A DNA stretch of 64,000 nucleotides. It comes from an uncultured Prevotellaceae bacterium. GTDB taxonomy: Bacteria > Bacteroidota > Bacteroidia > Bacteroidales > Bacteroidaceae. Location of the stretch: contig CADCBZ010000049.1 of the NCBI GenBank assembly GCA_902799765.1, forward strand, positions 18,179 to 82,178, read 5' to 3'. Positions 9,689 through 50,539 of the stretch are shown one piece after another; position 1 is the stretch's first letter, and each line of letters opens with the position of its first letter. Under the pieces are notes generated by a model, which ran no database searches, was not told where the DNA came from, and saw nothing but the letters and a program-made list of their open reading frames with translations. Position numbers and translations under genes: made by a program.

Positions 9689-9767
9689 TTCCCAGTAAGG
9701 GAATATGCCGTTAGGTTATGGCGTTCTTACTGCATAGTTATGAAAAAATTGTTCCCATTAATGGGAA
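9689..9767. repeat. TTCCC...GGGAA inverted repeats
   Basis: The imperfect repeat TTCCCAGTAAGGGAA (9689-9703) and the perfect palindrome TTCCCATTAATGGGAA (9752-9767) resemble the TTCCCAnnnTGGGAA units found at 21251-21309. No gene is seen between 9485 and 10241. Confidence 0.55.
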
Positions 9768-9853
9768 AAAGTGCTAGATTTAAAGGTAAAAAGTGCCGGA
9801 ATTAATAGTAAAAAGTAACCAAACGAGGCATAAAAAGTTACTTTTCAAGGCGA
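9744..9853. repeat. 22-nt periodic array with A-tracts (five units)
   Basis: A5 tracts begin at 9744, 9766, 9788, 9810 and 9832, exactly 22 nt apart; the last four read AAAAAGT. The 15 nt between them are mostly unrelated. Phased A-tracts at about two helical turns would be expected to curve DNA, and the array could also be a row of protein sites. No ORF covers it. Confidence 0.6.
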
Positions 9854-9995
9854 TTTTCCGAAACTAAAAAAGAGGCGGTTTTATAAGTATCAGAGTGTCA
9901 GCGGCTTACAAAACAGGTCATAATTCGCGTATTTGAGACCTGAGTTCGGATTGGTGGATTCCGCGCGATTCTCAGGCATCGGTTTGTAAAGTTTG

Positions 9996-10123
9996 TTTGC
10001 TCGCTTATTCGTATCTCTGAGCTGCGCTCAATTTGCACTACCTTTGAGCTGTGCTCGAAGGTACTCACGCTCGAAAATACAAAAAAATCACGATTTATTT
10101 TGTATTTTGCTCGCTTATTCGTA
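9996..10123. repeat. repeated TTTGCTCGCTTATTCGTA and GAGCTG palindromes
   Basis: The 18-mer TTTGCTCGCTTATTCGTA occurs at 9996-10013 and 10106-10123. Between them lie the palindrome TGAGCTGCGCTCA (10018-10030) and a 23-nt inverted repeat (10040-10062, arms ACCTTtGAGC and GCTCgAAGGT). It looks like a small REP-type element that also supplies promoter sequence to the thiamin operon. Confidence 0.5.
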
Positions 10124-10129
10124 CCTTTG
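10099..10129 (+). promoter_or_regulatory. thiamin operon promoter
   Basis: TTTG (10099-10102), 19 nt, TACCTTTG (10122-10129), directly upstream of the TPP riboswitch. Confidence 0.65.
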
Positions 10130-10137
10130 CAGCCGAT

Positions 10138-10192
10138 TTCAAGGGGTGCCTGCGGGTGCAGGCTGAGATGATACCCTCTAACCTGATCCAAC
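10138..10192 (+). promoter_or_regulatory. TPP riboswitch (THI element), 3' part apparently missing
   Basis: The conserved THI-box segments are present in order: AAGGGGTGCC, a short stem, GGCTGAGATG, ATACCC, AACCTGATCC. The closing part of the element (usually TAATnCCnGCG followed by AGGGA, re-pairing with the 5' strand) is absent. The sequence runs straight into ACACACTTACCCCC. That absence fits the short deletions seen in nearby genes, so the aptamer as written may be non-functional. Control of thiamin uptake genes by TPP is the expected role. Confidence 0.8.
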
Positions 10193-10241
10193 ACACTTAC
10201 CCCCTTTACATTATTAAATAATTAAAGGTACAACAAAAGGT

Positions 10242-12510
10242 ATGAAAAGATTTGTTTTAGGAATGACTGCGCTGGTGTGCGCAGTGAGTATGGAAGCGTC
10301 GAAACCTCTGGTGTCGCCAGAGATTGATCCGAGTGAACTTGATACGCTCAAGTCAGTAGAGCTGCAGGGTGTGCAGGTGACCTCTACTCGTGCTTCGAAG
10401 AAGACACCTGTGGCTTACACCAACATGTCGAAGGAAGAGCTGAAGGCCGTGAACTTCGGACGGGATATCCCTTACCTGCTCTCGCTGACTCCCAGCATCA
10501 CGATGACCTCAGATGCTGGTAACGGCATCGGCTATACCTCGCTCCGTGTGCGTGGTACTGATCCCAGCCGTATTAACATAACTGCCAACGGCATCCCCGT
10601 CAACGATGCGGAGAGTGCCCAGCTCTATTGGGTGAATATGGGCGACTTCGCCAGTAGCGTGCAGTCGATGCAGATACAGCGTGGTGTGGGTACGTCAACG
10701 AATGGTGCAGGAGCCTTTGGCGCGACAATCAATATGCAGACAGAGAATATCGGCATGAAACCTTACTTCGGACTCGACCTCTCTGGTGGCTCCTACTATT
10801 CGCATAAGGAGACGCTGCGCTTCGGAACGGGTCTGCTCAAAGATCATTGGGGTATTCAGGGACGACTCTCGAACATCGGTTCGAAGGGTTATCTCGATCG
10901 CGCCTCCACGAAGTTGAACAGCTATTTCATTCAGGGTGGATACTTCTCTGACAATACTGTGGTGAAGTTTATCACCTGGAACGGCATTGAGGAGACCTAT
11001 CACGCCTGGAACTACACCTCGAAGTATGAGCAGAGCCTCTACGGACGCACCTATAACTCCTGTGGCGAGTATTACGACGAGCAGGGTAATGTGCATTATT
11101 ATGATGGACAGACTGACAACTACCATCAGCAGAACTATCAGCTCTTGTGGAACCAGCGCCTTTCACGCAATCTGAATCTGAATGTGGCTGGTCACTATAC
11201 CAAGGGAAAAGGCTATTACGAGGAGTACAAGACGGGGCGCAAACTTATTGAATATCTGCCTAACGGGTACTGGTTCGATAGCGGTTTTGGCGGCGACAAG
11301 CTGAAGAGCGACCTGATCCGCCAGAAGAAGATGGATAACGACTTCTTTGCTGTTGTGGCTTCGTTGATGTATAACAACCAGGATAACATCGAGGCGATCC
11401 TGGGTGGCGGATGGAATAAATATGACGGCGATCACTTCGGACTCGTGAAATGGGTGAAGAACGTGCCGCAAGGTTTGGAGCTGCTGCCCGACTACGAGTA
11501 TTATCGCAACAATGCCAAGAAGACCGACTGGAACATCTATGGCAAGGTGAACTATGAGTTCGTGAAGGGACTGAACGGCTTCCTCGACCTGCAGTATCGC
11601 CATATCGGCTATCGGATGCAGGATCCACGACGAGTTCAACTTCTTCAATCCGAAGTTTGGCCTGAACTACGACATCACGCCTCATCATAAAGTCTATGCC
11701 TCGTATGCCATCGCCCATAAGGAGCCGACTCGTAATGACTATGAGGATAATATTGGCACAGATCTGAAGGCTGAGCGGCTGAACGATCTGGAGGTCGGTT
11801 ATAAGTTCCTGAGTGCGACATTCTCTGCTGGTGCTAATCTCTATTGGATGAGTTATAAGGATCAGTTTGTACTGACTGGTGAACTGAATCATATCGGAGA
11901 GCCTATCGCCAAGAACGTAGGTAAAAGTTATCGTCTGGGTGTCGAACTGGAGGCTGCTTGGAAACCTATCGACTGGTTCCGCTGGGATGCCAACGCCACC
12001 TTCTCGAAGAATCGTGCGGAGAACTGGGAGGTGACGCTGATGGACGGCTCTGTGGAGAGTCTTGGTGACACCCCGCTGTCGTTCTCTCCCAGTGTGATCT
12101 TCAATAATATCTTCAACTTCGAGTATAAAGGCTTGACGGCCAGTATCCAGAGCCAGTATATCGGTGAACAATATCTGACAAACACAGGCTTCAAGAGTTA
12201 TCAGACGCTCGATGACAATGGCAAACCCATCGATGTCAGTATGATACTCGACGGACATTTTACCACCAATATCGACCTCAGTTATACGTTCAGTATGAAG
12301 CAGTTAGGTGTGAAGGACCTCACCGTTGGCATCAGTCTCTACAACATCTTCTCTGCCAAATTTGACAATAACGGTTGGGCAGCACCTGCCTTCACCAAGG
12401 AGAATGGCAGACTGATTGCTACAGGCTGGGATACCTCCGACCAGTATGAGGCAGGTTTCGCACCCTCGGCTCCATTCAATGCGATGGCACATCTGTCAAT
12501 CAATTTCTAA
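10242..12510 (+). CDS. TonB-dependent outer-membrane receptor, probable thiamin receptor, frame-disrupted
   Basis: Outer-membrane beta-barrel transporter. The N-terminal signal is MKRFVLGMTALVCAVSMEA; the plug domain follows (LQGVQVTSTRASKKTPVAYT, YTSLRVRGTDPSRINITANG), then barrel strands. At 11626-11631 the frame breaks after YRMQDP. The barrel resumes in another frame with DEFNFFNPKFGLNYDITPHH and runs to the C-terminal AHLSINF, ending in aromatic F as expected. The missing piece is probably an extracellular loop segment of a few dozen nucleotides. Its place behind a TPP riboswitch and ahead of pnuT and a thiamin pyrophosphokinase indicates uptake of thiamin or a precursor. Confidence 0.87.
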
Positions 12511-12511
12511 A

Positions 12512-13074
12512 ATGCTGGAATTTCTAAGCGGGCATTGGCTCGACATATTGACAACGGTACTCGGCCTGATCTACATCTGGCTCGAGTATCGTGCGTCTAT
12601 AGCCCTCTGGGTTGTAGGCATCATCATGCCTGCTCTTGATATCTAATGGCTTGTTACTACACGTTGGCTGCCTTTTATGGCTTCTATGTCTGGAAGTTCA
12701 AAAAGACCAGGAAACTGAAACAGGAACTGCCCATCATCCACATGCCAAGAAGACAGTATCTGCCTGCAACGGTGTGCTTCTTTCTGGCCTGGGGAGCCAT
12801 CTATTACATCCTGATCACATGGACCAACTCCACTGTGCCCGTACTCGATTCGTTTACCAATGCCTTGTCTTTCATCGGCCTCTGGGCCTTGGCACGTAAG
12901 TACCTTGAACAGTGGTTGTTCTGGATGGTGGTCGATGTCGTATGTTGTATGCTTTATGTCCAAAAGGGTATTCCTTTCAAGGCAGGACTCTACGGACTAT
13001 ATGTCCTTATTGCCATTGCTGGCTATTACAAGTGGAAGAAGATGACCAAAATTACCAAGTATGAACGAGTTTGA
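12512..13074 (+). CDS. pnuT: PnuC-family thiamin transporter (PnuT), frame-disrupted
   Basis: Inner-membrane PnuC-type facilitator; in Bacteroidota, members in TPP-controlled operons carry thiamin. The first 44 residues (MLEFLSGHWLDILTTVLGLI to IIMPALDI) end at a frame break at 12643-12646, after which MACYYTLAAFYGFYVWKF resumes. The usual family sequence between these points is about 13 residues, so about 37 nt are missing. The C-terminal half keeps WGAIYYILITWTN and the helical run to YYKWKK. It starts 1 nt after the receptor stop and overlaps the kinase gene by 14 nt. Confidence 0.83.
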
Positions 13075-13675
13075 TGCTGTTATTCTGGCCAATGGCGCGT
13101 TTCCGACAGCTGACGAGCCGTTGAGACTATTGCGCGAAGCCCGTTTTGTGGTATGTTGTGATGGTGCAGCCCGTCACTGGCCGCAGTGCGATGCCATCGT
13201 TGGAGACGGCGACTCAGTACCAGAGGCTCTGAGGGATCGTCTGATTCAGATCGAAGAACAGGAGGACAACGACCTGACTAAAGCGACGCGTTACTGTCTG
13301 TCGAAGGGTATGCGGCGTATCGCCTATCTGGGTTCAACAGGGAAGCGTGAGGATCATACGTTGGGGAATATCTCATTGATTGCCAGATATAAGCAGGAGA
13401 TGGGTGTCGAGCCCTTTCTGGCTACGGATTACGGCTGGTTTGTCGTAGCGGAAGGCGAGTCGTCATTCGATTCATTCAAGGGTCAACAGGTTAGCATTTT
13501 CAACATGACTTGCAATGCGCTTTCTTCTGAAGGCCTTCTCTGGCAAGCCTATCCTTATAGCCAGTGGTGGCAAGGTACCCTGAACGAGTCGGCAGGTGAC
13601 TCTTTTACGCTGAAAGGTGACGGTTTTTATCTGGTATATCGAACCTATCAGGCTAAGGAGACAGCCCTAAAATGA
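13061..13675 (+). CDS. thiamine diphosphokinase
   Basis: A 204-residue cytoplasmic enzyme that transfers pyrophosphate from ATP to thiamin, giving TPP. Motifs seen: CCDGAARHW, AIVGDGDSVP (metal-binding DGDS), EDNDLTKATRYC and LGSTGKREDHTLGN, all typical of the TPK catalytic domain. The C-terminal TPK-binding region is shorter but present. It is the last gene of the riboswitch operon, so uptake and trapping of thiamin are made together. Confidence 0.9.
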   Translation: MNEFDAVILANGAFPTADEPLRLLREARFVVCCDGAARHWPQCDAIVGDGDSVPEALRDRLIQIEEQEDNDLTKATRYCLSKGMRRIAYLGSTGKREDHTLGNISLIARYKQEMGVEPFLATDYGWFVVAEGESSFDSFKGQQVSIFNMTCNALSSEGLLWQAYPYSQWWQGTLNESAGDSFTLKGDGFYLVYRTYQAKETALK

Positions 13676-13692
13676 AAATAATCCTTAGATAA

Positions 13693-13724
13693 TTTGGCTA
13701 TCTGCATCATTTTACGTACTTTTG
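13693..13724 (+). promoter_or_regulatory. promoter of acyl-CoA ligase operon
   Basis: TTTG (13693-13696), 20 nt, TACTTTTG (13717-13724), 22 nt before the ATG. Confidence 0.65.
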
Positions 13725-13746
13725 CAGCGGATTAACGAAAGTAGAT

Positions 13747-15521
13747 ATGCAGACGAACAGTCACTTATCTCGTCTGATTCATGATCAGGCGAAGAAATAT
13801 GGCGACCGCGAAGTACTGATCTATAAGGACTTTGGTGGGTCGGAGTGGAAATCATATTCCTGGAACCAGTTCTCGGATATGGTGAAGAGGGTGTCGAACG
13901 CTCTCTTGAACCTTGGAGTGAAGGTACAGGAGAATGTTGGCGTGTTCTCACAGAACTCCGTTCAGTATCTTTTCTGTGACTTTGGTGCATGGGGCATCCG
14001 TGCCGTCACTATCCCCTTCTATGCCACCAGCTCTGAACAGCAGATCCAGTTTATGATCAGCGACGCGAAAATGAGATTCCTTTTTGTAGGTGAGCAGGAT
14101 CAGTATGACAAGGCGCGTCGTGTGGTATCGATGTGCCAGACGTTGGAGCGCATCATCGTCTTCGATCGTAACGTTAAGCTCTCTGCCCAGGATTCGAATG
14201 CGATGTACTTCGACGACTTCCTGAAGTTGGGTGAGAACTATCCCCGTCAGTCGGAAGTGGAGCAGTTGCAGGTGCAGGCTTCGATGGATGATATTGCCAA
14301 TATCCTCTATACCAGTGGTACAACAGGCGATTCGAAAGGTGTGATCCTGACATGTGGACAGTATTATGCCGCTTTTGAAGCCAATAATAAGTGTGTGCCT
14401 GTGGGTGAGCAGGATCGCGTGTTGAACTTCCTGCCGTTTACGCATATCTTCGAGAAGGGCTGGAAGATCCTGTGTCTGACAGAGGGTGCCCGTCTGATTG
14501 TGAACACCTATCCTCAGGAGGTACAACAGTCGATGCGCGAGACGCATCCGACTTGTATGTCGTCTGTGCCCCGTTTCTGGGAAAAAGTCTATATCGGTGT
14601 ATTGGAGAAGATCGAGAGTGCCAGTACGATGCAGCGTAAACTCTTCCTGCATGCCCTGAGTGTAGGTAAGAAACATAATATCGACTATCTGTCAAAGGGT
14701 AAGCGTCCGCCGTTGGCCCTGCATCTGGAATATGAGATGTTGAATCGTACTGTATTCTCACTGGTGCGTAAGGAGTTGGGGCTGGAGAATGCGCATTTCT
14801 TCCCCACAGCTGGTGCTACCGTTAATCCGAAGGTGGAGGAGTTTGTACATGCCATCGGCCTGAATATGGTGGTGGGCTATGGTCTGACAGAGAGTCTGGC
14901 CACTGTAAGTTGTAACCATCTGGGTGAGCCTTTCACTGTGGGTGGTTTAGTGACGAGGGTGAGGTCCTGCTGAAGGGTCCGACGATCACCAGAGGCTACT
15001 ACAACCGTGATGATCTGACCAAAGAGGCCTTTACAGAGGACGGCTATTTCCGTACAGGTGACTCTGGCTATCTGAAGGATGGCGAACTCTTCCTGAAGGA
15101 GCGTATCAAGGATCTTTATAAGACCTCGAATGGTAAGTATATCGCACCACAGATGATTGAGTCGAAACTGTTGGTTGATAAGTACATCGACCAGATCTGT
15201 ATTATCGCAGACCAGCGTAAGTTCGTGTCGGCTCTGATCATTCCTGTCTATTCACTGCTGGAGGAGTATGCCCGTGAGCATCAGATCCCGTTCGAGACCC
15301 GTGAACAGCTCTGTGCCGATCCGAAGATCATTGCGATGATGAAGGAGCGTATTGACACACTGCAGCAGCAGCTGGCTCACTACGAGCAGATCAAACGCTT
15401 CACTTTGTTGCCTCAGAATTTCACGATGGAACGTGGTGAACTGACGAACACACTGAAGATCAAGCGTCGTGTATTGAACCAGAATTACGCCAGGGAGATT
15501 GATGCGATGTACGCAGAGTAA
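13747..15521 (+). CDS. AMP-dependent long-chain acyl-CoA synthetase, frame-disrupted
   Basis: Acyl-adenylate-forming ligase that activates fatty acids with ATP and CoA. The P-loop-like motif ILYTSGTTGDSKGVIL (near residue 185), the PFTHIFEKGW segment and GYGLTESLATVS (A5) are intact. After GEPFTVGG the frame shifts at 14944-14951, then DEGEVLLKGPTITRGYYNRDD resumes and includes YFRTGDSGYLKDGELFLKER (A7/A8) and the final catalytic-lysine region GELTNTLKIKRR. About a dozen residues usual at the break are missing. It heads a run with prfB (21-nt gap). Confidence 0.88.
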
Positions 15522-15542
15522 TTTTAAGATTAGAGGAAATAG

Positions 15543-16667
15543 ATGATTACACAAGACCAACTGAAGGATGTGCTGGAGCGCGCTGATGCGCTGCACCGCT
15601 ATCTGGAAATTGATAAGAAGAAGATAGAATACGAAGAGGAAGACCTCCGTACGCAGGCACCTGACTTCTGGGAAGACCGTCAGCGTGCTGAAGAGCAGAT
15701 GAAGAAAGTGAAAGGCATCAAGAAATGGCTTGATGGCTATAAGGAAGTACGGACGATGGCTGACGAGTTGCAGCTGGCCTTCGATTTCTATAAGGACGAG
15801 ATGGTAACAGAGGAAGAGGTGGAAGCCGATTATGCCAAAGCCATCAAGGCCATTGAGGATCTGGAGCTGAAGAATATGCTTCGTCAGAAGGAAGACCCGA
15901 TGGAAGCCGTCCTGAAGATCAATAGTGGAGCTGGTGGTACTGAGGCACAGGACTGGGCTTCGATGCTGATGCGTATGTATATGCGTTGGGCAGAGGCTCA
16001 TGGCTATAAGGTGACCATCTCCAACCTGCTCGATGGCGATGAGGCAGGTATCAAGAGTGTGACAATGCAGATAGAGGGGGGCGATTATGCCTATGGCTAT
16101 CTGAAATCGGAGAATGGCGTCCATCGTCTGGTACGTGTATCGCCTTTCAATGCTCAGGGTAAGCGTATGACCTCCTTTGCGTCAGTCTTTGTGTCGCCTC
16201 TGGTAGATGATACGATTGAGGTCTATGTCGATCCTGCCAAACTCTCTTGGGATACGTTCCGTTCCTCAGGTGCTGGTGGACAGAATGTGAACAAGGTGGA
16301 GTCGGGTGTACGTCTGCGCTATTGGTACACAGATCCGGATACAGGTGAGGAAGAGGAAATCCTCATTGAGAATACGGAGACCCGTGACCAGCCCAAGAAT
16401 AAGGAGCGTGCTATGACCTTGCTGAAATCTCAGCTCTACGATCGCGCCATGAAAAAGCGTCTGGAGGCTCAGGCAAAGATTGAGGCTGGTAAGAAGAAGA
16501 TCGAGTGGGGCAGTCAGATCCGTTCCTATGTCTTTGATGATCGTCGTGTAAAAGACCATCGTACGAACTATCAGACGACAGATGTCGATGGTGTGATGGA
16601 TGGTAAGATCGACGAGTTTATCAAGGCTTATCTGATGGAGTTCCCTGTAAATGACGAAGAACAATAA
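15543..16667 (+). CDS. prfB: peptide chain release factor 2
   Basis: A 374-residue class I release factor recognising UGA/UAA. The N-terminal helical domain is followed by the GGQ catalytic loop in RSSGAGGQNVNKVESGVRLR (about residue 240) and the SPF stop-recognition tripeptide in VRVSPFNAQGKRMTSF. The gene is a single uninterrupted frame, so the autoregulatory +1 frameshift site common in prfB is not present near the start. One extra Gly (IEGGDYAYGY) is noted. It is probably co-transcribed with the acyl-CoA ligase upstream and the small membrane protein downstream. Confidence 0.95.
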   Translation: MITQDQLKDVLERADALHRYLEIDKKKIEYEEEDLRTQAPDFWEDRQRAEEQMKKVKGIKKWLDGYKEVRTMADELQLAFDFYKDEMVTEEEVEADYAKAIKAIEDLELKNMLRQKEDPMEAVLKINSGAGGTEAQDWASMLMRMYMRWAEAHGYKVTISNLLDGDEAGIKSVTMQIEGGDYAYGYLKSENGVHRLVRVSPFNAQGKRMTSFASVFVSPLVDDTIEVYVDPAKLSWDTFRSSGAGGQNVNKVESGVRLRYWYTDPDTGEEEEILIENTETRDQPKNKERAMTLLKSQLYDRAMKKRLEAQAKIEAGKKKIEWGSQIRSYVFDDRRVKDHRTNYQTTDVDGVMDGKIDEFIKAYLMEFPVNDEEQ

Positions 16668-16686
16668 CTAATAATAAATTACGATT

Positions 16687-16845: not shown

Positions 16846-16848
16846 GGC

Positions 16849-17659: not shown

Positions 17660-17679
17660 ATTTACTTAAAATTTTGCTG

Positions 17680-17707
17680 CAAAATTAAGAAATAATTTAT
17701 ACTTTTG
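17680..17707. promoter_or_regulatory. divergent promoters vanZ / symporter
   Basis: Minus-strand -7 TAATTTTG at 17680-17687 serves vanZ, and plus-strand TACTTTTG at 17700-17707 serves the first symporter. Confidence 0.55.
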
Positions 17708-17731
17708 CAACGAATTATGAGAAAAGTGCAT

Positions 17732-19052: not shown

Positions 19053-20365
19053 ATGGAGGGAAGAGGCGTATTCGGTAGTAAAATAGCCATAGTCCTTGCT
19101 ACGGCAGGTTCTGCTGTAGGTTTGGGTAATGTGTGGCGTTTCCCCTTTATGACAGGGCAGAATGGAGGAGCGGCCTTTATCCTGGTTTATTTCGGATGCG
19201 TGTTGCTGCTGGGTATTCCTGGAATGGTCAGCGAGTTTCTAATTGGCCGATATGCCCAGTCAAATGCAGCCTCGGTTATCTGGGTATTCTGACATCTACG
19301 ATCATCCTGGGTTTCTATGCAGTAGTGGCTGGCTGGTGCCTGCAGTATCTGTATGCATCGATTGTTGGTCAGTTGAATGGCGATGCAGCCTATGTCGTCA
19401 ACTACTTCAAGACTTTCTCCAGTGATCCGTTCTGGCCTTGTCTGTGGGCTGTGGTCTTCGTATTGATCACGCATTTCGTGGTGGCACGTGGTGTGAATAA
19501 AGGGATTGAACGGGTTGCCAAACTGTTAATGCCACTGCTCCTGCTGTTGTTGATCATCATTGTGGTGGCCTCTTGTCTGTTGCCTGGTGCAGAGAAGGGA
19601 ATCTCTTTTTTGCTGAAGCCCGACTTCTCGAAGGTGAGTACGAATGTATTTCTGGAGGCTTTAGGACAGGCGTTCTTCTCCCTGAGTCTGGGAACAGCCT
19701 GCCTGTGTACTTATGGCTCCTATTTCAAACGCGATACTTATCTGTTGTGTTCTGCCACTCAGATTGCATTACTCGACTCAGGTATTGCCGTCCTGGCTGG
19801 TCTGATGATCTTTCCTGCAGCCTTCTCTGTGGGCGTACAACCAGATAGTGGTCCGTCGTTGATATTTATCACATTACCTAATGTGTTCCAGCAGGCATTT
19901 AGTGGAATGCCTGTGGTGGGTTATGTCATCTCTATCATGTTTTATGCACTGTTGGTGTTCGCGGCTCTGACCTCCACAGTCTCTATGCATGAGATCGGTA
20001 CGGCCTTCTTCCATGAGGAATTGAAGATCTCGCGCCAGCATGCTGCTTGGATATTGACATCCGTCTGTGCATTGTTGGCTATATTCTGCTCGTTCTCTGT
20101 TGGTGCCTATAGCGGATTACAACTCTTCGGAATGTCACTGATGGATTTCTGTGATTTCCTGACAGCCCAACTGATGCTGCCGACAGGCGCATTCCTGACG
20201 AGTATTATGCTGGGATGGTTTGTGAGTGAGAAACTGTTAAGGGATGAGTTTACAAATGGCGGAACGATCGGCCACTCCTTTTTCTATGTATGGCGCTTTA
20301 CCATTCGTTTTATTGTGCCCATCTGCATCCTCTTGATTTTCCTCCATCAGTTCGGCATTCTATGA
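19053..20365 (+). CDS. sodium-dependent symporter of the SNF family, copy 2, frame-disrupted
   Basis: Tandem paralogue of the preceding gene, with ATG immediately after its TAA. GVFGSKIAIVLATAGSAVGL and NVWRFPFMTGQNGG mark TM1. The frame breaks at 19270-19274 after GRYAQSNAA and resumes at GYLGILTSTIILGFYAVVAG. Copy 1 has 15 further residues here (RAFSKISGGSAWTLI), so 43 nt are missing. The remainder to FLHQFGIL is intact and supplies the segment lacking in copy 1. Substrate unknown; tandem copies may differ in specificity. Confidence 0.88.
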
Positions 20366-21237
20366 TGCGGGAATTTTTTTATCTTCAGAAATCCGATCGT
20401 AAGGTGATACTCGCCTTACTGACTGTGATTGTGATAGCATTAGGAATAATCTTATTCACTGGTAGTCCCAGTACTTCTAGTATTTCTGGAACTTCTAGAG
20501 ATTCTAGCCATGTTAGAAATGTCAGCAACTCTTCTCTTCCCACTCGGCAGGTCGAACGTTTCTTTTTTGACCCCAATACTGCAGACAGTGCCCAATTACG
20601 ACGGTTGGGGCTTCAGACTTGGCAGATTAGGAATATTTATAAATACCGTGCAGCTGGTGGTATCTATCGTGAGAAGACTGACTTTGCCCGCCTCTATGGC
20701 TTGACAGTGAAGGAGTATCGTGAATTGGAACCTTATATCCGTATCTCATCGGATTACCTGCCTGCTGCGACGTTGGTAAAGGAAAGCGCATCAGCCACTG
20801 CTAAGCATGACACCACGTTTGTGCATCATTATCCTCAGAAGATTGCAGAGACGGCGCATGTGGTCCTGAATACGGCTGACACCACAGAACTGATGACAGT
20901 ACCTGGCATCGGTCCATATTTTGCCAGAAAGATCGTACAGTATGGACAACGTCTGGGAGGATATGTAAACGTTGATCAACTCGATGAAATCGAGAATTTT
21001 CCTGCAGAGTCCAAACGCTTTCTCGTTGTTGAGGGAGCCACTCCGCAGAAGTTGAATGTCAATAAACTGACCTTGAATGAACTGAAACGTCACCCTTACA
21101 TTAACTTTTATCAGGCGAAGGATATTACCGATTATCGCCGTCTGCACGGACCTTTGCACTCTCTCAATGATCTCCGGCTCTCACGCGATTTCCCTCCTGA
21201 GGTCATCACCCGCCTGCTCCCCTATGTGGAGTTCTAA
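20362..21237 (+). CDS. ComEA-like helix-hairpin-helix protein
   Basis: A 291-residue protein with one N-terminal membrane anchor (VILALLTVIVIALGIILF), a Ser/Thr-rich linker encoded by a 9-nt-periodic DNA tract (20463-20510), and repeated helix-hairpin-helix units: LNTADTTELMTVPGIGPYFA, FDPNTADSAQLRRLGLQTWQ and LNVNKLTLNELKRHPYINF. Proteins of this type bind DNA non-specifically; ComEA serves DNA uptake, but the Bacteroidota versions are not well studied. The ATG at 20362 overlaps the symporter stop by 4 nt. Confidence 0.82.
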   Translation: MMREFFYLQKSDRKVILALLTVIVIALGIILFTGSPSTSSISGTSRDSSHVRNVSNSSLPTRQVERFFFDPNTADSAQLRRLGLQTWQIRNIYKYRAAGGIYREKTDFARLYGLTVKEYRELEPYIRISSDYLPAATLVKESASATAKHDTTFVHHYPQKIAETAHVVLNTADTTELMTVPGIGPYFARKIVQYGQRLGGYVNVDQLDEIENFPAESKRFLVVEGATPQKLNVNKLTLNELKRHPYINFYQAKDITDYRRLHGPLHSLNDLRLSRDFPPEVITRLLPYVEF

Positions 21238-21250: not shown

Positions 21251-21309
21251 TTCCCAACGTGGGAATGTTTTGTTCCCAGTGTGGGAACATTTCATTCCCA
21301 GTGTGGGAA
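21251..21309. repeat. three TTCCCAnnnTGGGAA palindromes at 22-nt spacing
   Basis: TTCCCAACGTGGGAA (21251-21265), TTCCCAGTGTGGGAA (21273-21287) and the same 15-mer again (21295-21309) start exactly 22 nt apart, separated by 7-nt spacers. They lie between the comEA-like stop and the tatA promoter. Confidence 0.8.
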
Positions 21310-33702: not shown

Positions 33703-33724
33703 TCTCTTAACTCTCAACTCTCAA
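33703..33724 (-). repeat. 7-nt periodic tract after murF stop
   Basis: On the minus strand the unit GAGAGTT is repeated and followed by AAGAGAA, spanning the murF stop and the leader of the next gene. Confidence 0.6.
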
Positions 33725-37853: not shown

Positions 37854-37856
37854 TAC

Positions 37857-37883
37857 ATTAAACATTAAAGATTAAACATTAAA
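37857..37883 (+). repeat. 7-nt periodic tract before ackA
   Basis: Units ATTAAAC, ATTAAAG, ATTAAAC and ATTAAA run from 4 nt after the pta stop to the ackA ATG at strict 7-nt spacing. Confidence 0.7.
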
Positions 37884-43681: not shown

Positions 43682-43719
43682 ATTCCTATAAAATGTTACT
43701 TTTGTTTCGTTTTCGGGTG

Positions 43720-43809
43720 CAAAGTTACTTCTTTTTTAGTAAAAAACGCAAAAAGTTGCACTAAATTTCTGATATTTCTTGCGTAATTCAAAAGAAATGA
43801 GTACTTTTG
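43720..43809. promoter_or_regulatory. divergent promoters efp / rpmH
   Basis: Minus-strand TAACTTTG (43720-43727) serves efp and plus-strand TACTTTTG (43802-43809) serves rpmH. Confidence 0.6.
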
Positions 43810-43854
43810 CACCCCAAATCGTTGGAAACATAACAAATATAAAAGTATAAAGCA

Positions 43855-44010
43855 ATGAAAAGAACATTTCAACCCCACAATCGCCGTCGCGTGAACAAGC
43901 ACGGTTTCCGTGAGAGAATGGCCACCAAGAATGGTCGTCGCGTTCTGGCCGCTCGTCGTGCTAAGGGCCGCAAGAAGTTAACGGTTTCTGATGAGCATCA
44001 CGGAAAGTAA
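43855..44010 (+). CDS. rpmH: 50S ribosomal protein L34
   Basis: A 51-residue basic ribosomal protein: [20 protein letters not shown], then [20 protein letters not shown] and the tail [11 protein letters not shown]. The KRTFQP and KHGFRxRM signatures are unmistakable. Followed by a strong terminator, so probably monocistronic. Confidence 0.97.
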
Positions 44011-44045
44011 TCCGCTGTCGTTCATAAGGTAAATTGGTGAAAAAT

Positions 44046-44087
44046 AGAAAGAAGTAGGGTGTAATCTCTGCTTCTTTCTGTTTTTTT
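44046..44087 (+). terminator. rpmH terminator
   Basis: AGAAAGAAG (44046-44054) pairs with CTTCTTTCT (44071-44079), followed by a run of seven T (44081-44087). Confidence 0.75.
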
Positions 44088-44174
44088 GTGTCTTTTCGCC
44101 TATTTTGGATAAATTTCTCACGCTCAAGAAAGCAAATAAATTGGCTTTCTCTTCGCTAAATCGAAATTTTGCAC

Positions 44175-44182
44175 TAACTTTG
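44175..44182 (+). promoter_or_regulatory. promoter -7 element of PASTA-rluD-ddl operon
   Basis: TAACTTTG, 20 nt before the ATG at 44202. Confidence 0.6.
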
Positions 44183-44201
44183 CAGCCAAAGTAGAAGAAA
44201 A

Positions 44202-44807
44202 ATGGAAGCAAAAGAATTCTTCGGTAAGTTTGCAAGCGGTTTTCTTTGGGGCAACATCCTGGCTATGGTGCTGGTGGCCTATACGCGTCATGGTGAATGT
44301 ATTGTAGTGCCAAAGGTCGAGGGGGTGGATTGTCAGAGAGCCCGTGTCCTGATGGAAGAGCGTGGACTGTATCTCGTGGTGACAGACTCTGGGTATAACA
44401 AGCGTCTGCCAGCCAACAGCATCCTTGTTCAGAACCCTGGTCCAGGCATGAAGGTCAAAGAGGGGCATACGATCTATGTCACAGTCAACTCACCGTCTTC
44501 ACCCTCATTTGCTATCCCTGATCTGGTGGATAACAGTAGTTTCCGTGAGGCAGAGGCCAAGCTGACGGCCATCGGCTTTAAGTTAACGCCCCCTCAGTCT
44601 GTGGAGGGAGAGAAAGACTGGGTCTATGGTATTCTCTGCCGAGGTCGAAGGGTCTCTACGGGTGATCGCATATCCATCGATTCCCCGCTGACTTTGCTGG
44701 TTGGTAACGGCCATTATGGCGCGGAGGAAGCTATCGACTACATTGGGTCTGAGATTCAGCCTATGCAGGAGGGTGAGACCGACGAATTCGAAGAAATAGT
44801 CGAATGA
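44202..44807 (+). CDS. PASTA-domain membrane-anchored protein
   Basis: A 201-residue protein with one N-terminal helix (GFLWGNILAMVLVAY) and two or three PASTA repeats: VPKVEGVDCQRARVLMEERG with VQNPGPGMKVKEGHTIYVTV, and IPDLVDNSSFREAEAKLTAI with STGDRISIDSPLTLLVG. PASTA domains bind peptidoglycan or muropeptides; no kinase domain is attached. It heads an operon with rluD-like, ddl and an acyltransferase, overlapping the next gene by 4 nt. Confidence 0.87.
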   Translation: MEAKEFFGKFASGFLWGNILAMVLVAYTRHGECIVVPKVEGVDCQRARVLMEERGLYLVVTDSGYNKRLPANSILVQNPGPGMKVKEGHTIYVTVNSPSSPSFAIPDLVDNSSFREAEAKLTAIGFKLTPPQSVEGEKDWVYGILCRGRRVSTGDRISIDSPLTLLVGNGHYGAEEAIDYIGSEIQPMQEGETDEFEEIVE

Positions 44808-45820
44808 TGGATTTCGTTGAAGACGATGAGCTCTATGAGCATTTCCGGATAGAGGTGGATAAGGGGCAGGAGCCTGTCCGTATCGACAAATATCTGTCGG
44901 AACATCAACCGCACTCCAGTCGTAACCGTATTCAGAAAGCGGCAGATGCGGGTTTCATTCATGTAAATGGTCGTCCGGTAAAGAGTAATTATAAGGTGCG
45001 CGCGGGTGATGTCGTCACCCTGATGTTGGACCGTCCGCATTATGATACCACCATAGAACCTGAGGATATTCCGCTCGAGGTGGTGTATGAGGACGATGAC
45101 CTGATGGTCATCAACAAACCGGCAGGTATGGTGGTACATCCGGGCTGTGGTAATTTCAACGGCACACTGGTGAACGCTATCGCCTGGCATCTGAAGGATC
45201 TGGAGAGCTACGACCCGAACGATCCTGAGGTGGGCCTCGTTCATCGCATCGATAAGGATACCAGTGGTCTGCTTGTGGTGGCAAAGACACCCGATGCCAA
45301 GACCTCGTTGGGTAAGCAGTTCTTCAACAAGACCACACATCGCAGTTACAACGCTCTGGTGTGGGGCAATTTCGTAGAGGATGAGGGACGGATAGAAGGT
45401 AATATCGGCCGTGACCCGAAGGATCGTCTCCGTATGGAGGTGTTTCCGCCAGACTCAGAGGTTGGCAAACCTGCCGTGACACATTACCATGTGATGGAGC
45501 GCTATGGCTATACCACGTTGGTGGAGTGTGTGTTGGAGACAGGACGTACTCATCAGATCAGGGCTCACATGAAGCATATCGGTCATCCGCTGTTCTGTGA
45601 CGAGCGCTATGGCGGGACGGAGATCCTCAGAGGGGAGCGCACGGCCAGCTATAAGGCCTATATCCAGAACTGTTTCAAGCTCTGTCCGCGACAGGTGCTG
45701 CACGCCAAGACTTTAGGTTTCTTGCATCCCACGACAGGCCAGCAGCTGGACTTTACCTCAGAATGGCCCGAGGATATGGCGGCCCTGATAGATAAATGGA
45801 GAAAATACATTAAACATTAA
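44804..45820 (+). CDS. rluD: RluA-family 23S rRNA pseudouridine synthase (RluD-like)
   Basis: A 338-residue enzyme. The N-terminal S4 RNA-binding domain (VRIDKYLSEHQPHSSRNRIQ) is followed by the catalytic domain with VGLVHRIDKDTSGLLVVAKT, holding the catalytic Asp, and CVLETGRTHQIRAHMKHIGH. The layout is that of RluD, which modifies helix 69 of 23S rRNA. The last codons (YIKH and stop) are part of a 7-nt periodic tract. Confidence 0.93.
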   Translation: MMDFVEDDELYEHFRIEVDKGQEPVRIDKYLSEHQPHSSRNRIQKAADAGFIHVNGRPVKSNYKVRAGDVVTLMLDRPHYDTTIEPEDIPLEVVYEDDDLMVINKPAGMVVHPGCGNFNGTLVNAIAWHLKDLESYDPNDPEVGLVHRIDKDTSGLLVVAKTPDAKTSLGKQFFNKTTHRSYNALVWGNFVEDEGRIEGNIGRDPKDRLRMEVFPPDSEVGKPAVTHYHVMERYGYTTLVECVLETGRTHQIRAHMKHIGHPLFCDERYGGTEILRGERTASYKAYIQNCFKLCPRQVLHAKTLGFLHPTTGQQLDFTSEWPEDMAALIDKWRKYIKH

Positions 45821-45841
45821 AGATTATATATTAAATATTCA
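45809..45841 (+). repeat. 7-nt periodic tract across rluD stop and ddl leader
   Basis: ATTAAAC, ATTAAAG, ATTATAT, ATTAAAT and ATTCA run directly into the ddl ATG at 45842. The first two units equal those before ackA. Confidence 0.7.
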
Positions 45842-46834
45842 ATGGAACAGCAGAAGAGAACGATTGCCATCGTTTGTGGTGGCGATTCATCAGAACACGA
45901 TGTGTCACTGCGCTCTGCACAGGGACTCTATTCTTTCTTTGACAAGGAACGTTATGATATCTACATCGTTGATATCAAGGGACAGGACTGGCATGTGGAA
46001 CTTCCTGACGGGACAACGGCCAAGATCGACCGCAATGATTTCTCGTTCATGGAGAATGGGAAGGCCCGTTTGTTCGACTATGCTTATATCACCATCCATG
46101 GCACCCCGGGCGAGAATGGCCTGCTGCAGGGCTACTTCGATCTGATCGGTCTGCCTTACAGCACTAGCAGTGTCCTGGTGGAAGCCATGACCTTTGATAA
46201 GTTCGTACTCAACCAGTATCTGCGTGGCTATGGTGTCAGCGTGGCCGACTCCCTGTTGATCCGCAAGGGCTATGAGGAGCTTGTGTCCGACGATGAGATC
46301 GAGGAGCGTATCGGCATGCCGTGTTTTGTGAAGCCTGCTGCCGACGGTTCTTCTTTCGGCGTGTCGAAGGTGAAGAACAAGGATCAGCTCGCTCCTGCCA
46401 TCCGTAAGGCGATGTTGGAGAGCCCGGAAATTATGGTTGAGGGTTTCCTCGAAGGCACGGAAATCTCTATTGGTGTCTATAAGACGAAGGAGAAGACTGT
46501 GGTATTGCCTGCAACCGAGGTGGTTACCAGCAACGAGTTCTTTGATTACGATGCGAAGTACAACGGCCAGGTTCAGGAGATCACACCGGCTCGTCTGCCG
46601 GAGGATGTCACGGAACGCGTGCGCCAGATTACCTCACACATCTACGACATCCTCCACTGCAATGGCATCATCCGCATCGACTACATCATCTCTAAGGAGG
46701 GAAAGATCTCGATGCTGGAGGTGAACACCACCCCGGGTATGACGGCCACCAGCTTCATTCCTCAGCAGGTACGTGCTGCAGGCCTGAACATGGCTGATGT
46801 TTTGACTGATATTGTTGAGAACCAGTTTATTTAA
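45842..46834 (+). CDS. ddl: D-alanine--D-alanine ligase
   Basis: A 330-residue ATP-grasp ligase making the D-Ala-D-Ala used by MurF. It has VCGGDSSEHDVSLRSAQGLY, HGTPGENGLLQGYFDLIGLP, CFVKPAADGSSFGVSKVKN, EITPARLP, and MLEVNTTPGMTATSFIPQQ at the Mg site. Operon mates with PASTA and rluD genes place it in cell-wall supply. Confidence 0.95.
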   Translation: MEQQKRTIAIVCGGDSSEHDVSLRSAQGLYSFFDKERYDIYIVDIKGQDWHVELPDGTTAKIDRNDFSFMENGKARLFDYAYITIHGTPGENGLLQGYFDLIGLPYSTSSVLVEAMTFDKFVLNQYLRGYGVSVADSLLIRKGYEELVSDDEIEERIGMPCFVKPAADGSSFGVSKVKNKDQLAPAIRKAMLESPEIMVEGFLEGTEISIGVYKTKEKTVVLPATEVVTSNEFFDYDAKYNGQVQEITPARLPEDVTERVRQITSHIYDILHCNGIIRIDYIISKEGKISMLEVNTTPGMTATSFIPQQVRAAGLNMADVLTDIVENQFI

Positions 46835-46836
46835 AT

Positions 46837-48018
46837 ATGCAAGAGTTCGACGAGATCAGGCCGTATGAGGCGGAGGAGATGAAGCAGGCGTTTGAGGATT
46901 TGCTCAACGACCGTCAGTTCCAGTTGATTCTGAAGGGTTTTGTACCCTGGCTACCCAAGAGTCTGCGCAACGGATTCTTGAAGCTGGCCTTCACGGGCAT
47001 CAAGACACCGCTCGACTTCCAGTTGCGGTTCATGAAACCCATCGTGAAGTACATCATCCGCAAGCATACCGATGGATGCTCCTTCGATGATCGTGATCTG
47101 AAGGGAGTTGATCCTCAGAAGGTGGGGCGTTATACATTCGTCTCTAACCATCGTGACATAGTGCTCGACTCTGCCTTCCTCGATGTGATGCTCGTTGCCA
47201 ATGGTTATCCGACAACCGTTGAGATAGGTATCGGTGACAATCTACTCATCTATCCCTGGATTAAACGACTCGTGCGGATGAACAAGGCGTTTACGGTGCG
47301 TCGCGGACTCTCTCCAAAAGAAATGCTGCGCTCCAGTCAGCTGATGAGCCGTTACATCCATTATGCCGTCACTAAGAAACAGGAGAACATCTGGATTGCC
47401 CAGCGTGAGGGTAGGGCGAAGGACTCTAACGACCGCACGCAGGACTCTGTGCTGAAGATGTTGGCGATGGGAGCCCCTGATGAGCTGAAGAACCCGGCTG
47501 ATCGCCTGCGCGAACTGAATATCGTGCCGCTTACCATCAGTTATGAGTTCGATCCCTGCGACTATCTGAAAGCTCAGGAACTTCAGGAGAAACGCGACAT
47601 CCCTGGCTTCAAGAAAAGTCGTCAGGATGACCTCGATAATATGAAGACGGGCATCTTCGGTTATAAGGGTAGGGTGATGTATCACTGTGCAGCCCCTGTC
47701 AACACCTGGATTGATGAACTGGCAGAACTGCCAAAGACGGAGTTCTTCACAGCCCTCGCCCAGCGCATGGACAAGGATATCCATCGTGGCTATCAGCTCT
47801 TCCCCTGCAACTATATCGCGTTGGATGAACTGGAAGGCTCTGCTGCCCATGCGACTCATTATACGGCTGACGACAAGACCCGCTTCGAGACCTATCTTGC
47901 CGGACAACTGGCCAAGATCTCCATTCCGAACAAAGATGAGGCCTTCCTACGGGAGTGTATGCTCAAGATGTATGCCAACCCGGCAGTAAACCAGATAGAA
48001 GTGAAAAGTGAGAAGTGA
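46837..48018 (+). CDS. 1-acyl-glycerol-3-phosphate acyltransferase family protein
   Basis: A 393-residue PlsC/GPAT-like acyltransferase. The catalytic motif is FVSNHRDIVLDSAFLDVML (NHxxxxD type) and the substrate motif is IWIAQREGRAKDSNDRTQDS. The family transfers acyl chains to glycerophospholipid precursors; this long Bacteroidota form may act on other lipids. It begins 2 nt after ddl. The last codons (VKSEK) come from a heptamer tract. Confidence 0.85.
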   Translation: MQEFDEIRPYEAEEMKQAFEDLLNDRQFQLILKGFVPWLPKSLRNGFLKLAFTGIKTPLDFQLRFMKPIVKYIIRKHTDGCSFDDRDLKGVDPQKVGRYTFVSNHRDIVLDSAFLDVMLVANGYPTTVEIGIGDNLLIYPWIKRLVRMNKAFTVRRGLSPKEMLRSSQLMSRYIHYAVTKKQENIWIAQREGRAKDSNDRTQDSVLKMLAMGAPDELKNPADRLRELNIVPLTISYEFDPCDYLKAQELQEKRDIPGFKKSRQDDLDNMKTGIFGYKGRVMYHCAAPVNTWIDELAELPKTEFFTALAQRMDKDIHRGYQLFPCNYIALDELEGSAAHATHYTADDKTRFETYLAGQLAKISIPNKDEAFLRECMLKMYANPAVNQIEVKSEK

Positions 48019-48035
48019 AAAGTGAGAGGTTAAAA
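48001..48035 (+). repeat. 7-nt periodic tract between acyltransferase and NigD-like gene
   Basis: GTGAAAA and GTGAGAA alternate twice, then GTTAAAA, then the ATG at 48036. It contains the stop of the gene upstream. Confidence 0.75.
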
Positions 48036-48752
48036 ATGAAAAGTTTTGGTACATATCATGTTTGGTATTGGAGATGGGGCATTCTTTCTCTACTTATTAC
48101 TTTCCACTTCTCACTCCTCACTTCTTGTACCCGGGATGCCTACGAGAAAGGCGAGGGGGCATATTCTCTGATGCGGGGCGATTTCGCTGAGGCGAATGTC
48201 AATAGTAACTGTGAGATCACCTCCATCACTACAGATGATGGTGAGACCCTGCCCCTGACGATCCTGCAGACGGCACAATGGATCTCAAGTCCCGATACCA
48301 TCTATCGTTGCATGTTATATTATAATAAGGTGAAGGCTGCTGATGGAAAGCCTGCGGCTGAGGTGATCTCATTAGGTAAAGTGTCATGTCTGTATATTAT
48401 GCCCCTTGCCATGTCTGAGAAGACCTATAAGGATGATCCTGTGAAGTTCGAGAGTCTCTGGCGGAGTAAGTCGGGCAAATATCTGAACCTGCATCTTCAG
48501 TTGAAGACAGGCTATACGGAGGATTCGACAGCTGTGCAGAAGTTGAATGTCGTTTCAGACACACTGATAACCTACCCTGATGGTCAACGTACCTTGTCAG
48601 TACTACTTTATCACGACCAGGCAAATGTTCCTGAATATTATTCCACCCAGGCCTATGTCAGCATCCCGACAACGGGTCTTGGCGTTGACTCTATCCGTCT
48701 TTACATCAACACCTATTCCGGTCCCGTCATCAAGACGTTGCCTCTTCAATAG
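48036..48752 (+). CDS. NigD-like lipoprotein
   Basis: A 238-residue lipoprotein resembling the NigD-like family of Bacteroidota. Its signal peptide (WGILSLLITFHFSLLTSC, lipobox LTSC) is itself encoded by a 7-nt periodic tract (48094-48128). The mature part is beta-rich (GEGAYSLMRGDFAEANVNSN, YINTYSGPVIKTLPL). Family function is unknown; nigD was named from a bacteriocin locus. A GTG at 48015 is in frame but lies in the repeat. It is last in the operon. Confidence 0.72.
   Translation: MKSFGTYHVWYWRWGILSLLITFHFSLLTSCTRDAYEKGEGAYSLMRGDFAEANVNSNCEITSITTDDGETLPLTILQTAQWISSPDTIYRCMLYYNKVKAADGKPAAEVISLGKVSCLYIMPLAMSEKTYKDDPVKFESLWRSKSGKYLNLHLQLKTGYTEDSTAVQKLNVVSDTLITYPDGQRTLSVLLYHDQANVPEYYSTQAYVSIPTTGLGVDSIRLYINTYSGPVIKTLPLQ
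48094..48128 (+). repeat. 7-nt periodic tract encoding the NigD signal peptide
   Basis: TTATTAC, TTTCCAC, TTCTCAC, TCCTCAC and TTCTTGT at 7-nt spacing, encoding the hydrophobic core and lipobox. Confidence 0.65.
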
Positions 48753-48755
48753 CCT

Positions 48756-50021
48756 TTATTTCAGATAGTCGTTGATGAATGCTTCGCGGGGGTGGAGAAA
48801 CTTCTCTTCCCAAGGGGAGCGTAAATCACCAGAGGGCCAGGCGTGGGTGCGATAGGGCACACAATTGATGGTCTTTTTGCCGGGTGCATTGTTCAGCGAC
48901 GAGAAGACGGCTGAGGGTGGACAGGTGGTATCGATGAGACCAATCTCGCAGTAGATTTCGGCTTTTGAGTAACGGATGAGTTGGGCACCGTCAAAATAGG
49001 GTAGTGTGTTATCGAGTTGTGTCGAAGAGAGGGCCTGGTGGTTTTCGATAGGCTGTGGCCATCCGCTAAGGCGTCCCTTACGCGCACCGCCCAGGTCCTG
49101 CATGGCAGGCACATTGAGCACCACCGCAGAGACACGCGGGTCCAGACTGGCAGCGGCTACGGCTTGTCCACCGCCCTGACTCTCACCGACAACGAGGATG
49201 CGTCGCCGGTCCCATTCCGGTTGCTTTGTCATGTACTCGATGGCACGTAAGACACGCAGATACATACCACGGAAATAGTAAGTCTCACGGTCGGCGGCGT
49301 TATATTCAAAATAGTTCTTTAGCAGACCATCTTCGAGCATCTGATAATAATCGTCAGATTGTCCGTTGAGCATGCCGTGGGCATTGAGATCAAGGCTGAG
49401 TGCACCGTTTCCTAAGGCAGCATTCCCCACACACTCATTCACCGAACAGCGGCACCAGTCGCCTTTCACACCAGCGGCACGACAGAGGATGATGATGGGC
49501 AGTGACTTCTCCTTGGCTCCTACGGGCTTGGCTACATAGGCGCGCATGGGGGCAGGACCGAGACAGTTAATCTCCACGTCCTCACAGGTATATTTGTCCT
49601 GATACTGTTGTGGCACCGCCAACGGTGTAGCCTTCACCTGCATCGGTAATGCTTTGAGTTGCTGCTTCAGGTTATCCCAGTAGTCCATTAGGTCGGCTGG
49701 CTCTTCATAGCCGGCTTGGAACCCTTCTGGAGCCACCACATAACCGATACTGGCAGACGCCCCTGAACGCTCCTTCACCTCTATGGAGACAGCACAGGTA
49801 CTATCTAACACCTGTTCCAATACGGTGAAGTCAATAGATGTCGGTAGAATACTGAATTCTTGACCTACCTTATTATTATAGGACACACTCACGAACAACG
49901 AATCCGTAGGCACGATGTCGGTATGACATGTAACCACAGCGCGCTCACCTTTCTCATAGACGCCGCTTTCCTTGTTGATGCTGAGATTAAAGAGTAATAA
50001 AGAAAGAATACTAAGTATCAT
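48756..50021 (-). CDS. acetylxylan esterase (carbohydrate esterase family 7)
   Basis: A 421-residue alpha/beta hydrolase that deacetylates xylan oligosaccharides or cephalosporin-like esters. Short signal MILSILSLLLFNLSI, then an N-terminal beta domain and the catalytic domain with PIIILCRAAGVKGDW, nucleophile elbow VVGESQGGGQAVAAA, acid GLIDTTCPPSAVFSSLN and His in PYRTHAWPSG. It is convergent with the NigD gene (3-nt gap). Transcription probably starts near 50117, about 95 nt upstream. Confidence 0.88.
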   Translation of the reverse strand: MILSILSLLLFNLSINKESGVYEKGERAVVTCHTDIVPTDSLFVSVSYNNKVGQEFSILPTSIDFTVLEQVLDSTCAVSIEVKERSGASASIGYVVAPEGFQAGYEEPADLMDYWDNLKQQLKALPMQVKATPLAVPQQYQDKYTCEDVEINCLGPAPMRAYVAKPVGAKEKSLPIIILCRAAGVKGDWCRCSVNECVGNAALGNGALSLDLNAHGMLNGQSDDYYQMLEDGLLKNYFEYNAADRETYYFRGMYLRVLRAIEYMTKQPEWDRRRILVVGESQGGGQAVAAASLDPRVSAVVLNVPAMQDLGGARKGRLSGWPQPIENHQALSSTQLDNTLPYFDGAQLIRYSKAEIYCEIGLIDTTCPPSAVFSSLNNAPGKKTINCVPYRTHAWPSGDLRSPWEEKFLHPREAFINDYLK

Positions 50022-50122
50022 AACATATATATTCGTTTATTTAATGTTTCCAGTAATCCATGAAAACAAAACCACTTCCCAAATATTCCGATAAAGTCAT
50101 TATAATTATACCTTAACGGGGA

Positions 50123-50130
50123 CAAATATA
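50123..50130 (-). promoter_or_regulatory. promoter -7 element of acetylxylan esterase
   Basis: TATATTTG on the minus strand. Between 50022 and 50567 there is no gene: I see this promoter, two GTTAC...GTAAC-type inverted repeats (50213-50229, 50247-50261) and the array below. Confidence 0.45.
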
Positions 50131-50340
50131 GTCATATTTCTATAATAATATACCATATCAGGTATAAATTTAATGATTTTTATCGTTATTACACCCGATT
50201 TGTTGCTTTGTTGTTACCACGAGGATAACTGATTAGGAATTAGTTGGTTACTGGTGGTAACAATAAAGTGCAGGGTGACAACAAAATTGATTATGATTTT
50301 ACTTAAATGCAGTTTTTCCCAGAATTAAATCCCGCACTTG

Positions 50341-50539
50341 TTACATTTAAATGTAGCAAGATTTAGATTTAAATGTAGCAAAGATATATTTACAGCAGAC
50401 TTGTAACGCCATTACAGTAGGCTTGTAAGAGCATTACAGTAGTCATGTAACGGGTTTACAAATAACTTGTAATAGGGGTGAAGGATTATCTGAACGATTC
50501 GGACATGACTGATGAACGAGCGTTACATGGCTTATGTAA
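50341..50539. repeat. TTACA-N7-TGTAA palindrome array with 22-nt spacing
   Basis: Four 17-mers start at 50390, 50412, 50434 and 50456, exactly 22 nt apart: TTACAGCAGACTTGTAA, TTACAGTAGGCTTGTAA, TTACAGTAGTCATGTAA and TTACAAATAACTTGTAA. Two related units with a TTTAAATGTAGCAA core start at 50341 and 50363, also 22 nt apart and 27 nt before the first. A further TTACATGGCTTATGTAA lies at 50523-50539. The array borders the end of the AAA ATPase gene. Confidence 0.8.

Follow-up and report, generated by a model that had tools for sequence, protein, structure and literature searches.

The 64,000-nucleotide stretch analysed here (the window, G000:C49:18179-82178) comes from an uncultured Prevotellaceae bacterium whose own genome, G000, comprises 3.77 Mb in 152 contigs. 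It carries several tandem arrays of short palindromic units with an exact pitch of 22 bp. We put at roughly 0.5 the probability that these arrays belong to several families within a single class of short elements that are dispersed in Prevotella-type genomes, protein-bound, non-autonomous and similar to repetitive extragenic palindromic (REP) sequences. The arrays are dispersed, keep a fixed pitch and a preferred number of units (usually three in the TTCCCA and ATTTAAAT families), and combine near-invariant arms with variable centres and spacers. They lie near the 3' ends of genes or within open frames, and their cores differ between families and species. The arrays of the window are as follows, in window coordinates and with no strand assigned to any of them:

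9743 to 9838: array 1, four AAAAAGT units starting at 9766, 9788, 9810 and 9832, preceded by an A-tract at 9743/9744; a member of the AAAAGTWAC family.
21251 to 21309: array 2, three TTCCCA-N3-TGGGAA units starting at 21251, 21273 and 21295, in 22-nt steps.
50323 to 50374: an AWTTAAWT array of three units starting at 50323, 50345 and 50367, one of 15 in the own genome.
50390 to 50472: array 3, four TTACA-N7-TGTAA units starting at 50390, 50412, 50434 and 50456, in 22-nt steps.
50523 to 50539: a fifth TTACA-N7-TGTAA site, 67 nt past the fourth start, an offset that is identical in a second copy on contig C18.

Arrays 1 to 3 had been reported in a preliminary description of this DNA. A script run over the window reproduced every position, including the exact 22-nt steps between the AAAAAGT starts, and the three arrays were the only period-22 rows returned by Tandem Repeats Finder. 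In the window, no more than three 7-mers have three or more copies at a constant step of 15 to 35 nt; all have a step of 22 and all lie in arrays 1 and 2, as compared to a mean of 0.01 such 7-mers in 100 second-order Markov shuffles. A palindrome scan detected arrays 2 and 3 and missed array 1, the units of which are imperfect palindromes. The same description had noted a related pair of sites, 22 nt apart, beside array 3. The spacing was correct; the pair turned out to be the three AWTTAAWT units listed above, and since they belong to the separate ATTTAAAT family we dropped them as a part of array 3.

Array 2 belongs to the TTCCCA family. TTCCCA-N(2-6)-TGGGAA occurred at 21 sites in the own genome and the reversed pattern, used as a control, at none. 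Eighteen of the 21 palindromes sit in six arrays (on contigs C3, C9, C44 and C49 and two on C12), each with exactly three units at 22-nt steps. Tandem pairs of the form TTCCC-N5-GGGAA-N7-TTCCC-N5-GGGAA were present in 25 of 100 genomes of the same genus, with up to 72 per genome, while the control pattern was absent from all 100. Among 80 loci listed from genome contigs, 76 were labelled Prevotella, Prevotellaceae or Xylanibacter, three Bacteroidales or Bacteroidaceae, and one Clostridiales. The carriers include isolate genomes (X. ruminicola Ga6B6, P. ruminicola KHT3 and Prevotella sp. ne3005), and the arrays are therefore not an artefact of metagenome binning. TTCCCA arrays were also found on five viral-contig stretches; one of these lies within an 83-aa open frame on a contig with a phage-integrase-like gene.

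The number of units per array has a preferred value. In 154 distinct arrays from the retrieved loci, each with at least one perfect palindrome and nearly all retrieved with the exact two-unit pattern, there were 103 arrays of three units, as compared to six of one, 16 of two, 24 of four, four of five and one of six. The three-unit core array measures 59 nt. The 7-nt spacer between palindromes has the consensus YRWWWYR, which creates another dyad within each unit, 11 bp away from the first, and the pooled flanks of 141 arrays contain a weak outer palindrome, AGC-NNNNN-GCT, centred 22 nt outside the array.

The arms of the units are more constrained than the sequence between them. Allowing up to three mismatches in 24 fixed positions (the exact and relaxed patterns differ at the inner A/T) added few pairs: 14 relaxed versus 12 exact in G000 and, with TTCCC-N5-GGGAA as the exact pattern, 58 versus 54 in G094 and 46 versus 42 in G035. 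Decayed copies are therefore rare, though centres and spacers are diverse. Orthologous sites gave a similar picture. We aligned 29 ABC-F loci that had been retrieved by gene homology, using a query that included the array, and found TTCCC arrays in the variable linker of six of them (L209-L212, L218 and L219). Pairwise among five of these genes, 32 to 35 of the 36 arm positions were identical, as compared to 10 to 18 of the 23 positions in centres and spacers; the sixth case, L210, is partly decayed (arms 27/36) and was left out of the pairs. In L213 and L214 the same linker holds 22-nt arrays whose cores differ from TTCCC (TTTTC..GAAAA and GTTTC..GAAAC, respectively), and inspection by eye showed two GTCCG..CGGAC units in L216. 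Further species have unrelated linkers.

Array 2 itself begins 14 nt past the stop of a helix-hairpin-helix gene (20290-21237) and lies about 110 nt ahead of tatA. We compared this site with 11 relatives, six of which had no close gene pair in the retrieved match. The array is common to the window and G025, where the arms are identical at 36 of 36 positions and the rest at 21 of 23, within a stretch that is 76% identical overall. It is absent from G013, G090, G031 and G020, all of which retain both flanking genes; these empty sites are too diverged to mark the ends of the element.

To place the family relative to genes we surveyed 146 TTCCCA loci, with open frames called mechanically. Forty arrays lie in gaps between tandem genes, 28 in convergent gaps and 14 in divergent gaps, 38 are in or overlap frames of at least 150 aa, and 26 were undecidable at locus edges. 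The 3' flanks (n = 96) had a median length of 95 bp, with 28 within 30 bp and 35 within 60 bp, and the 5' flanks (n = 68) a median of 285 bp, with none within 30 bp and four within 60 bp. In 55 of the 146 cases the array lies inside the longest open reading frame (ORF) called there (at least 70 aa), which stays open throughout, for example a 665-aa ABC-F ORF. Three 22-bp units amount to 66 nt, a length divisible by three. The unit number cannot be explained by reading frame alone, since the ATTTAAAT arrays keep three units as well and none of the 13 checked in the own genome lies within a frame of 150 aa or more.

The preliminary description had further held that the spacing stays constant while the core differs, and had named the lack of other arrays in the genome or in relatives as grounds for giving this up. 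Further arrays were present in both, and the constancy extends to the TTCCCA, ATTTAAAT and AAAAGTWAC families and to a scan for other periods. Units centred on ATTTAAAT (for example GCTAGATTTAATTCTAGCACTT) gave 15 three-unit matches at 15 separate places in the own genome, with none for the control, and the three-unit pattern matched six of the 100 genomes. For 12 of 13 such arrays checked with their flanks, no adjacent 22-nt position reached 7/8 core matches; the remaining array has a fourth core at 7/8. G006 has a different sequence around a similar core, and its near-symmetrical pattern had 22 matches against 11 for the control. When one mismatch was permitted, the pattern for AAAAAGT pairs could hardly be separated from its controls (10 and 14 versus 9 and 7). 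The stricter three-unit AAAAGTWAC pattern matched the own genome eight times, at four places, and its controls never; the family occurs elsewhere on own-genome contigs C4, C10 and C62 and in G025, G073 and G088. TTACA-N7-TGTAA was found 13 times in the own genome, against one match for the reversed pattern. There are two own-genome copies of this element, in the window and on C18; both consist of four units plus a fifth at a distance of 67 nt, and they are 81% identical over 151 nt. Outside the own genome no full match was found in the 100 genomes, which contained short pieces only.

We scanned 2.18 Mb of retrieved DNA for palindromic arrays of three units, covering each period between 15 and 35. 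At period 22 there were 142 arrays with TTCCC cores, as is expected from the selection of the loci, and 13 with other cores. Period 21 gave eight CTTATT/AATAAG arrays and one TTCCC row, and all other periods gave zero to two. The shuffled sequence contained no arrays. The suggestion of a class of tandem elements whose units have a constant length fits the data. The period of 22 is not quite universal, given the eight period-21 arrays. These lie directly beside TTCCCA arrays (L195:2121, L109:537, L171:612, L070:1437 and four more loci). Another family with a 22-nt pitch, AAAACCTATGGTTTT, was seen in four loci (L189:5821, L199:1439, L088:5879 and L182:182).

Each unit consists of two dyads about 11 bp apart, and the inverted half-sites therefore alternate once per helix turn, with all units on one face of the DNA. 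A pitch of 22 bp corresponds to two helix turns; what is new is that one pitch is common to many cores. The symmetry and the pitch suggest that a putative dimeric DNA-binding protein, one for each core and perhaps paralogous to the others, reads the arms. The preliminary description had proposed dimeric proteins that polymerise along the DNA, a possibility that would rest on the same symmetry and pitch. Cooperative binding of neighboring units two turns apart may then fix the pitch, and the elements would spread and persist as non-autonomous REP-like repeats that are tolerated downstream of genes and within them.

Several observations weigh against a single class of protein-bound element. The analysis found neither a binding protein nor a transposase for the arrays, and no duplication of target sites. 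Retrieval with an exact two-unit pattern favors intact TTCCCA arrays, and the 13 arrays with other cores come partly from loci that were retrieved for holding an array. The rarity of decayed copies is broken by G020, with 29 relaxed versus 14 exact TTCCC-N5-GGGAA pairs. The CTTATT/AATAAG family has a period of 21. Unit number varies by family, as all seven G006 loci checked go beyond three: four of them have four exact cores, two have three and an additional core at 7/8, and one has more. No period-22 array was found in a 400-kb own-genome sample taken from outside the known TTCCCA arrays. A looser scan of this sample gave none at period 22, six at period 21 and four at period 20, some of these being AT-rich noise; it is insensitive to the ATTTAAAT family and missed a known array in L275 (G000:C2:6307). 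A stretch of 306 kb of G099 gave two at period 22, one of them the ABC-F stretch that had been included deliberately. The own-genome sample, which was not chosen for arrays, also contained period-21 arrays resembling TTTCA..TGAAA (L269:5047, L275:15798 and L287:16969).

It could be speculated, with less confidence than we attach to the REP-like element, that the arrays form a scattered chromosome-marking system in Prevotella, by analogy with centromere-like or nucleoid-organising sites. In such a system the pitch would be conserved while the core turns over between lineages along with co-evolving cooperative DNA-binding proteins, and each species would have its own core, or several cores side by side. 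If a protein does set the pitch, the arrays predict a new family of DNA-binding proteins in bacteria that are among the most abundant of the gut and rumen, and they provide a ready binding motif for each species together with natural replicates that differ in core. If the elements are mobile, they are repeats of an unusually rigid architecture. The in-frame arrays also add peptide segments to conserved proteins.

Among the competing explanations we rank the REP-like, protein-bound element as the likeliest and an origin in VapE-type, phage-satellite-like elements next, although the latter is improbable in itself. According to this explanation the arrays belong to the regions in which such elements are replicated or controlled, and those that occur alone are remnants or non-autonomous copies resembling origins. 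The commonest neighbor of the TTCCCA arrays is indeed a VapE-like gene, found at 17 of the 146 loci, 175 to 488 bp away and reading away from the array in 17 of 17 cases; two of these genes have a Pfam VapE-like_dom match. There are ten VapE matches in the own genome, with one in the 400-kb own-genome sample and none in the 306 kb of G099. In G025 a VapE frame is located about 0.2 kb from one AAAAGT array. Certain 7-mers are enriched near arrays (CTACTAA at 28 loci versus 2.9 expected and ACCTAAC at 27 versus 5.1, expectations that are lowered by a coding background), and the regions upstream of VapE also contain direct repeats of about 11 nt such as CACCTAACA. These repeats are iteron-like, with locus-specific cores (CCTAAC, CTCTAC, GACATA and others) and often in inverted sets, and were seen at L049, L068, L101, L107, L109, L138, L139, L147 and L152. 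The same TTCCCA core, however, accompanies VapE genes that have differing iteron cores. Moreover, 129 of the 146 loci have no member of the VapE cluster, and no VapE match was found in 13 ATTTAAAT loci, seven G006 loci, four AAAACC loci or the window. Thirty-one of the 100 genomes have no VapE match, including the array carriers G066, G085 and G098. Apart from VapE, the recurrent clusters of neighboring ORFs are mostly host genes that carry or flank an array at shared places, and a search among the neighbor ORFs of the 146 loci for a decisive autonomous element found none.

Mobilisation by REP-associated tyrosine transposases (RAYT, Y1_Tnp) would account for dispersed palindromes close to gene 3' ends and looked promising from co-occurrence. 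Y1_Tnp matches were present in 64 of the 100 genomes, and a subfamily of 260 to 310 aa seemed commoner in array carriers, as read off the list and without statistics. Also in its favor, passages of PMC6006769 describe Bacteroidetes-specific subclass 2.6 genes flanked by atypical structures that are copied elsewhere in the genome. We nevertheless rejected this candidate and regard it as quite unlikely: only one of the 146 loci had a RAYT-like gene among its ORFs, a single instance that sets no rule, and the array carriers G020, G035 and G094 lack a Y1_Tnp match. The printed flanks of 20 Y1 loci, inspected by eye, showed their own GGGGACAGG-type palindromes or none, and no TTCCCA array; the array edges, in a flank profile of 141 arrays, bear W-T-R and no GTAG or CGTC tag. 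RAYT-like Y1_Tnp genes of about 260 to 290 aa with flanking palindromes of their own, such as GGGGACAGG..CCTGTCCCC or GGGGCC..GGCCCC, were seen at L249, L256, L258, L260, L264, L267 and other loci. A transcription factor that binds cooperatively to tandem operators would explain the palindromes, the helical phasing and the arms being more constrained than the centres, and would suit array 2 upstream of tatA and the 17 arrays upstream of VapE genes. The arrays are found near gene 3' ends or in frames and seldom close upstream of a gene (5' ends 0 and 4/68 within 30 and 60 bp, versus 28 and 35/96 for 3' ends), divergent gaps are outnumbered by convergent ones (14 versus 28), and 38 of the 146 arrays are in or overlap frames of at least 150 aa. 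They are therefore not ordinary operators, and we rejected this explanation on position as having very little likelihood. Slightly less probable again are RNA hairpins that act as terminators or stabilise mRNA 3' ends. The location at 3' ends and the ability of TTCCCA and TGGGAA to pair as RNA are consistent with this; however, the other families are very AT-rich and would be expected to form weak hairpins, arrays occur inside open frames, and in an Rfam search of the window only a tRNA reached the gathering score.

Three lesser features of the window accompany its arrays, again with no strand assigned:

9689 to 9703: TTCCCAGTAAGGGAA, an imperfect TTCCC palindrome upstream of array 1.
9752 to 9767: TTCCCATTAATGGGAA, a palindrome next to array 1 that resembles a unit of array 2 and has a centre of 4 nt.
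50198 to 50555: a putative, weakly supported composite element that would enclose the two 22-nt arrays, with ATTTGTTGCTTTGTTGTTACC on one side (50198-50218) and an inverted copy of it, GTAACAACAAAACAACAAAT, on the other (50536-50555).

The second of these bears out the resemblance to array 2 that had been claimed for the palindrome beside array 1. Terminal inverted repeats bounding array 3 are hinted at by the window sequence and are not retained in the second copy, as the right-hand inverted copy is missing from C18 in an alignment of the two. A Fic/DOC-family gene (8597-9622) neighbors array 1. In the window 11 of the 28 Tandem Repeats Finder rows have a period of 7 (at 33704, 35095, 37373, 37855, 42777, 45807, 47999, 48086, 53260, 54032 and 54246). 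Several of these lie at gene junctions, and the one at 37855-37883 fills the gap between two ORFs.

Among the listings returned from an open-access full-text library, none described such arrays in Prevotella, which does not establish absence from print. Theta replicons, R6K and RK2 among them, have iterons, direct repeats with a spacing of about 22 bp on one helix face, beside a rep gene. The arrays have a similar spacing, whereas they consist of palindromes scattered over the chromosome; a replication-initiator gene is not their regular neighbor, VapE-like genes being near 17 of the 146 TTCCCA arrays and absent from the window. The nearest known kinds are REP sequences, Rickettsia palindromic elements (RPEs) and miniature inverted-repeat transposable elements (MITEs). 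MITEs, including BrickBuilt of P. gingivalis, are likewise small non-coding dispersed elements in Bacteroidales, as described in parts of PMC5771137 and PMC10969869; BrickBuilt is reported there as strictly intergenic, and no consistent terminal inverted repeats or target-site duplication were found for the arrays. RPEs, in passages of PMC10969869, are palindromic elements that lie in frame inside genes, as some of our arrays do. They measure about 150 bp and encode a conserved peptide, in contrast to arrays of 59-66 bp made of 22-bp units, with 59 nt for the three-unit core array. REP sequences and bacterial interspersed mosaic elements, in the sections of PMC3733652 that treat the GTAG- and CGTC-tagged families, are short dispersed palindromes, single or grouped, some of them in ORFs, and several families may share a genome. 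The arrays are similarly dispersed, extragenic and near 3' ends; they differ in lacking the GTAG or CGTC tag and a regular RAYT neighbor, and in having an exact 22-nt pitch and a fixed unit number.

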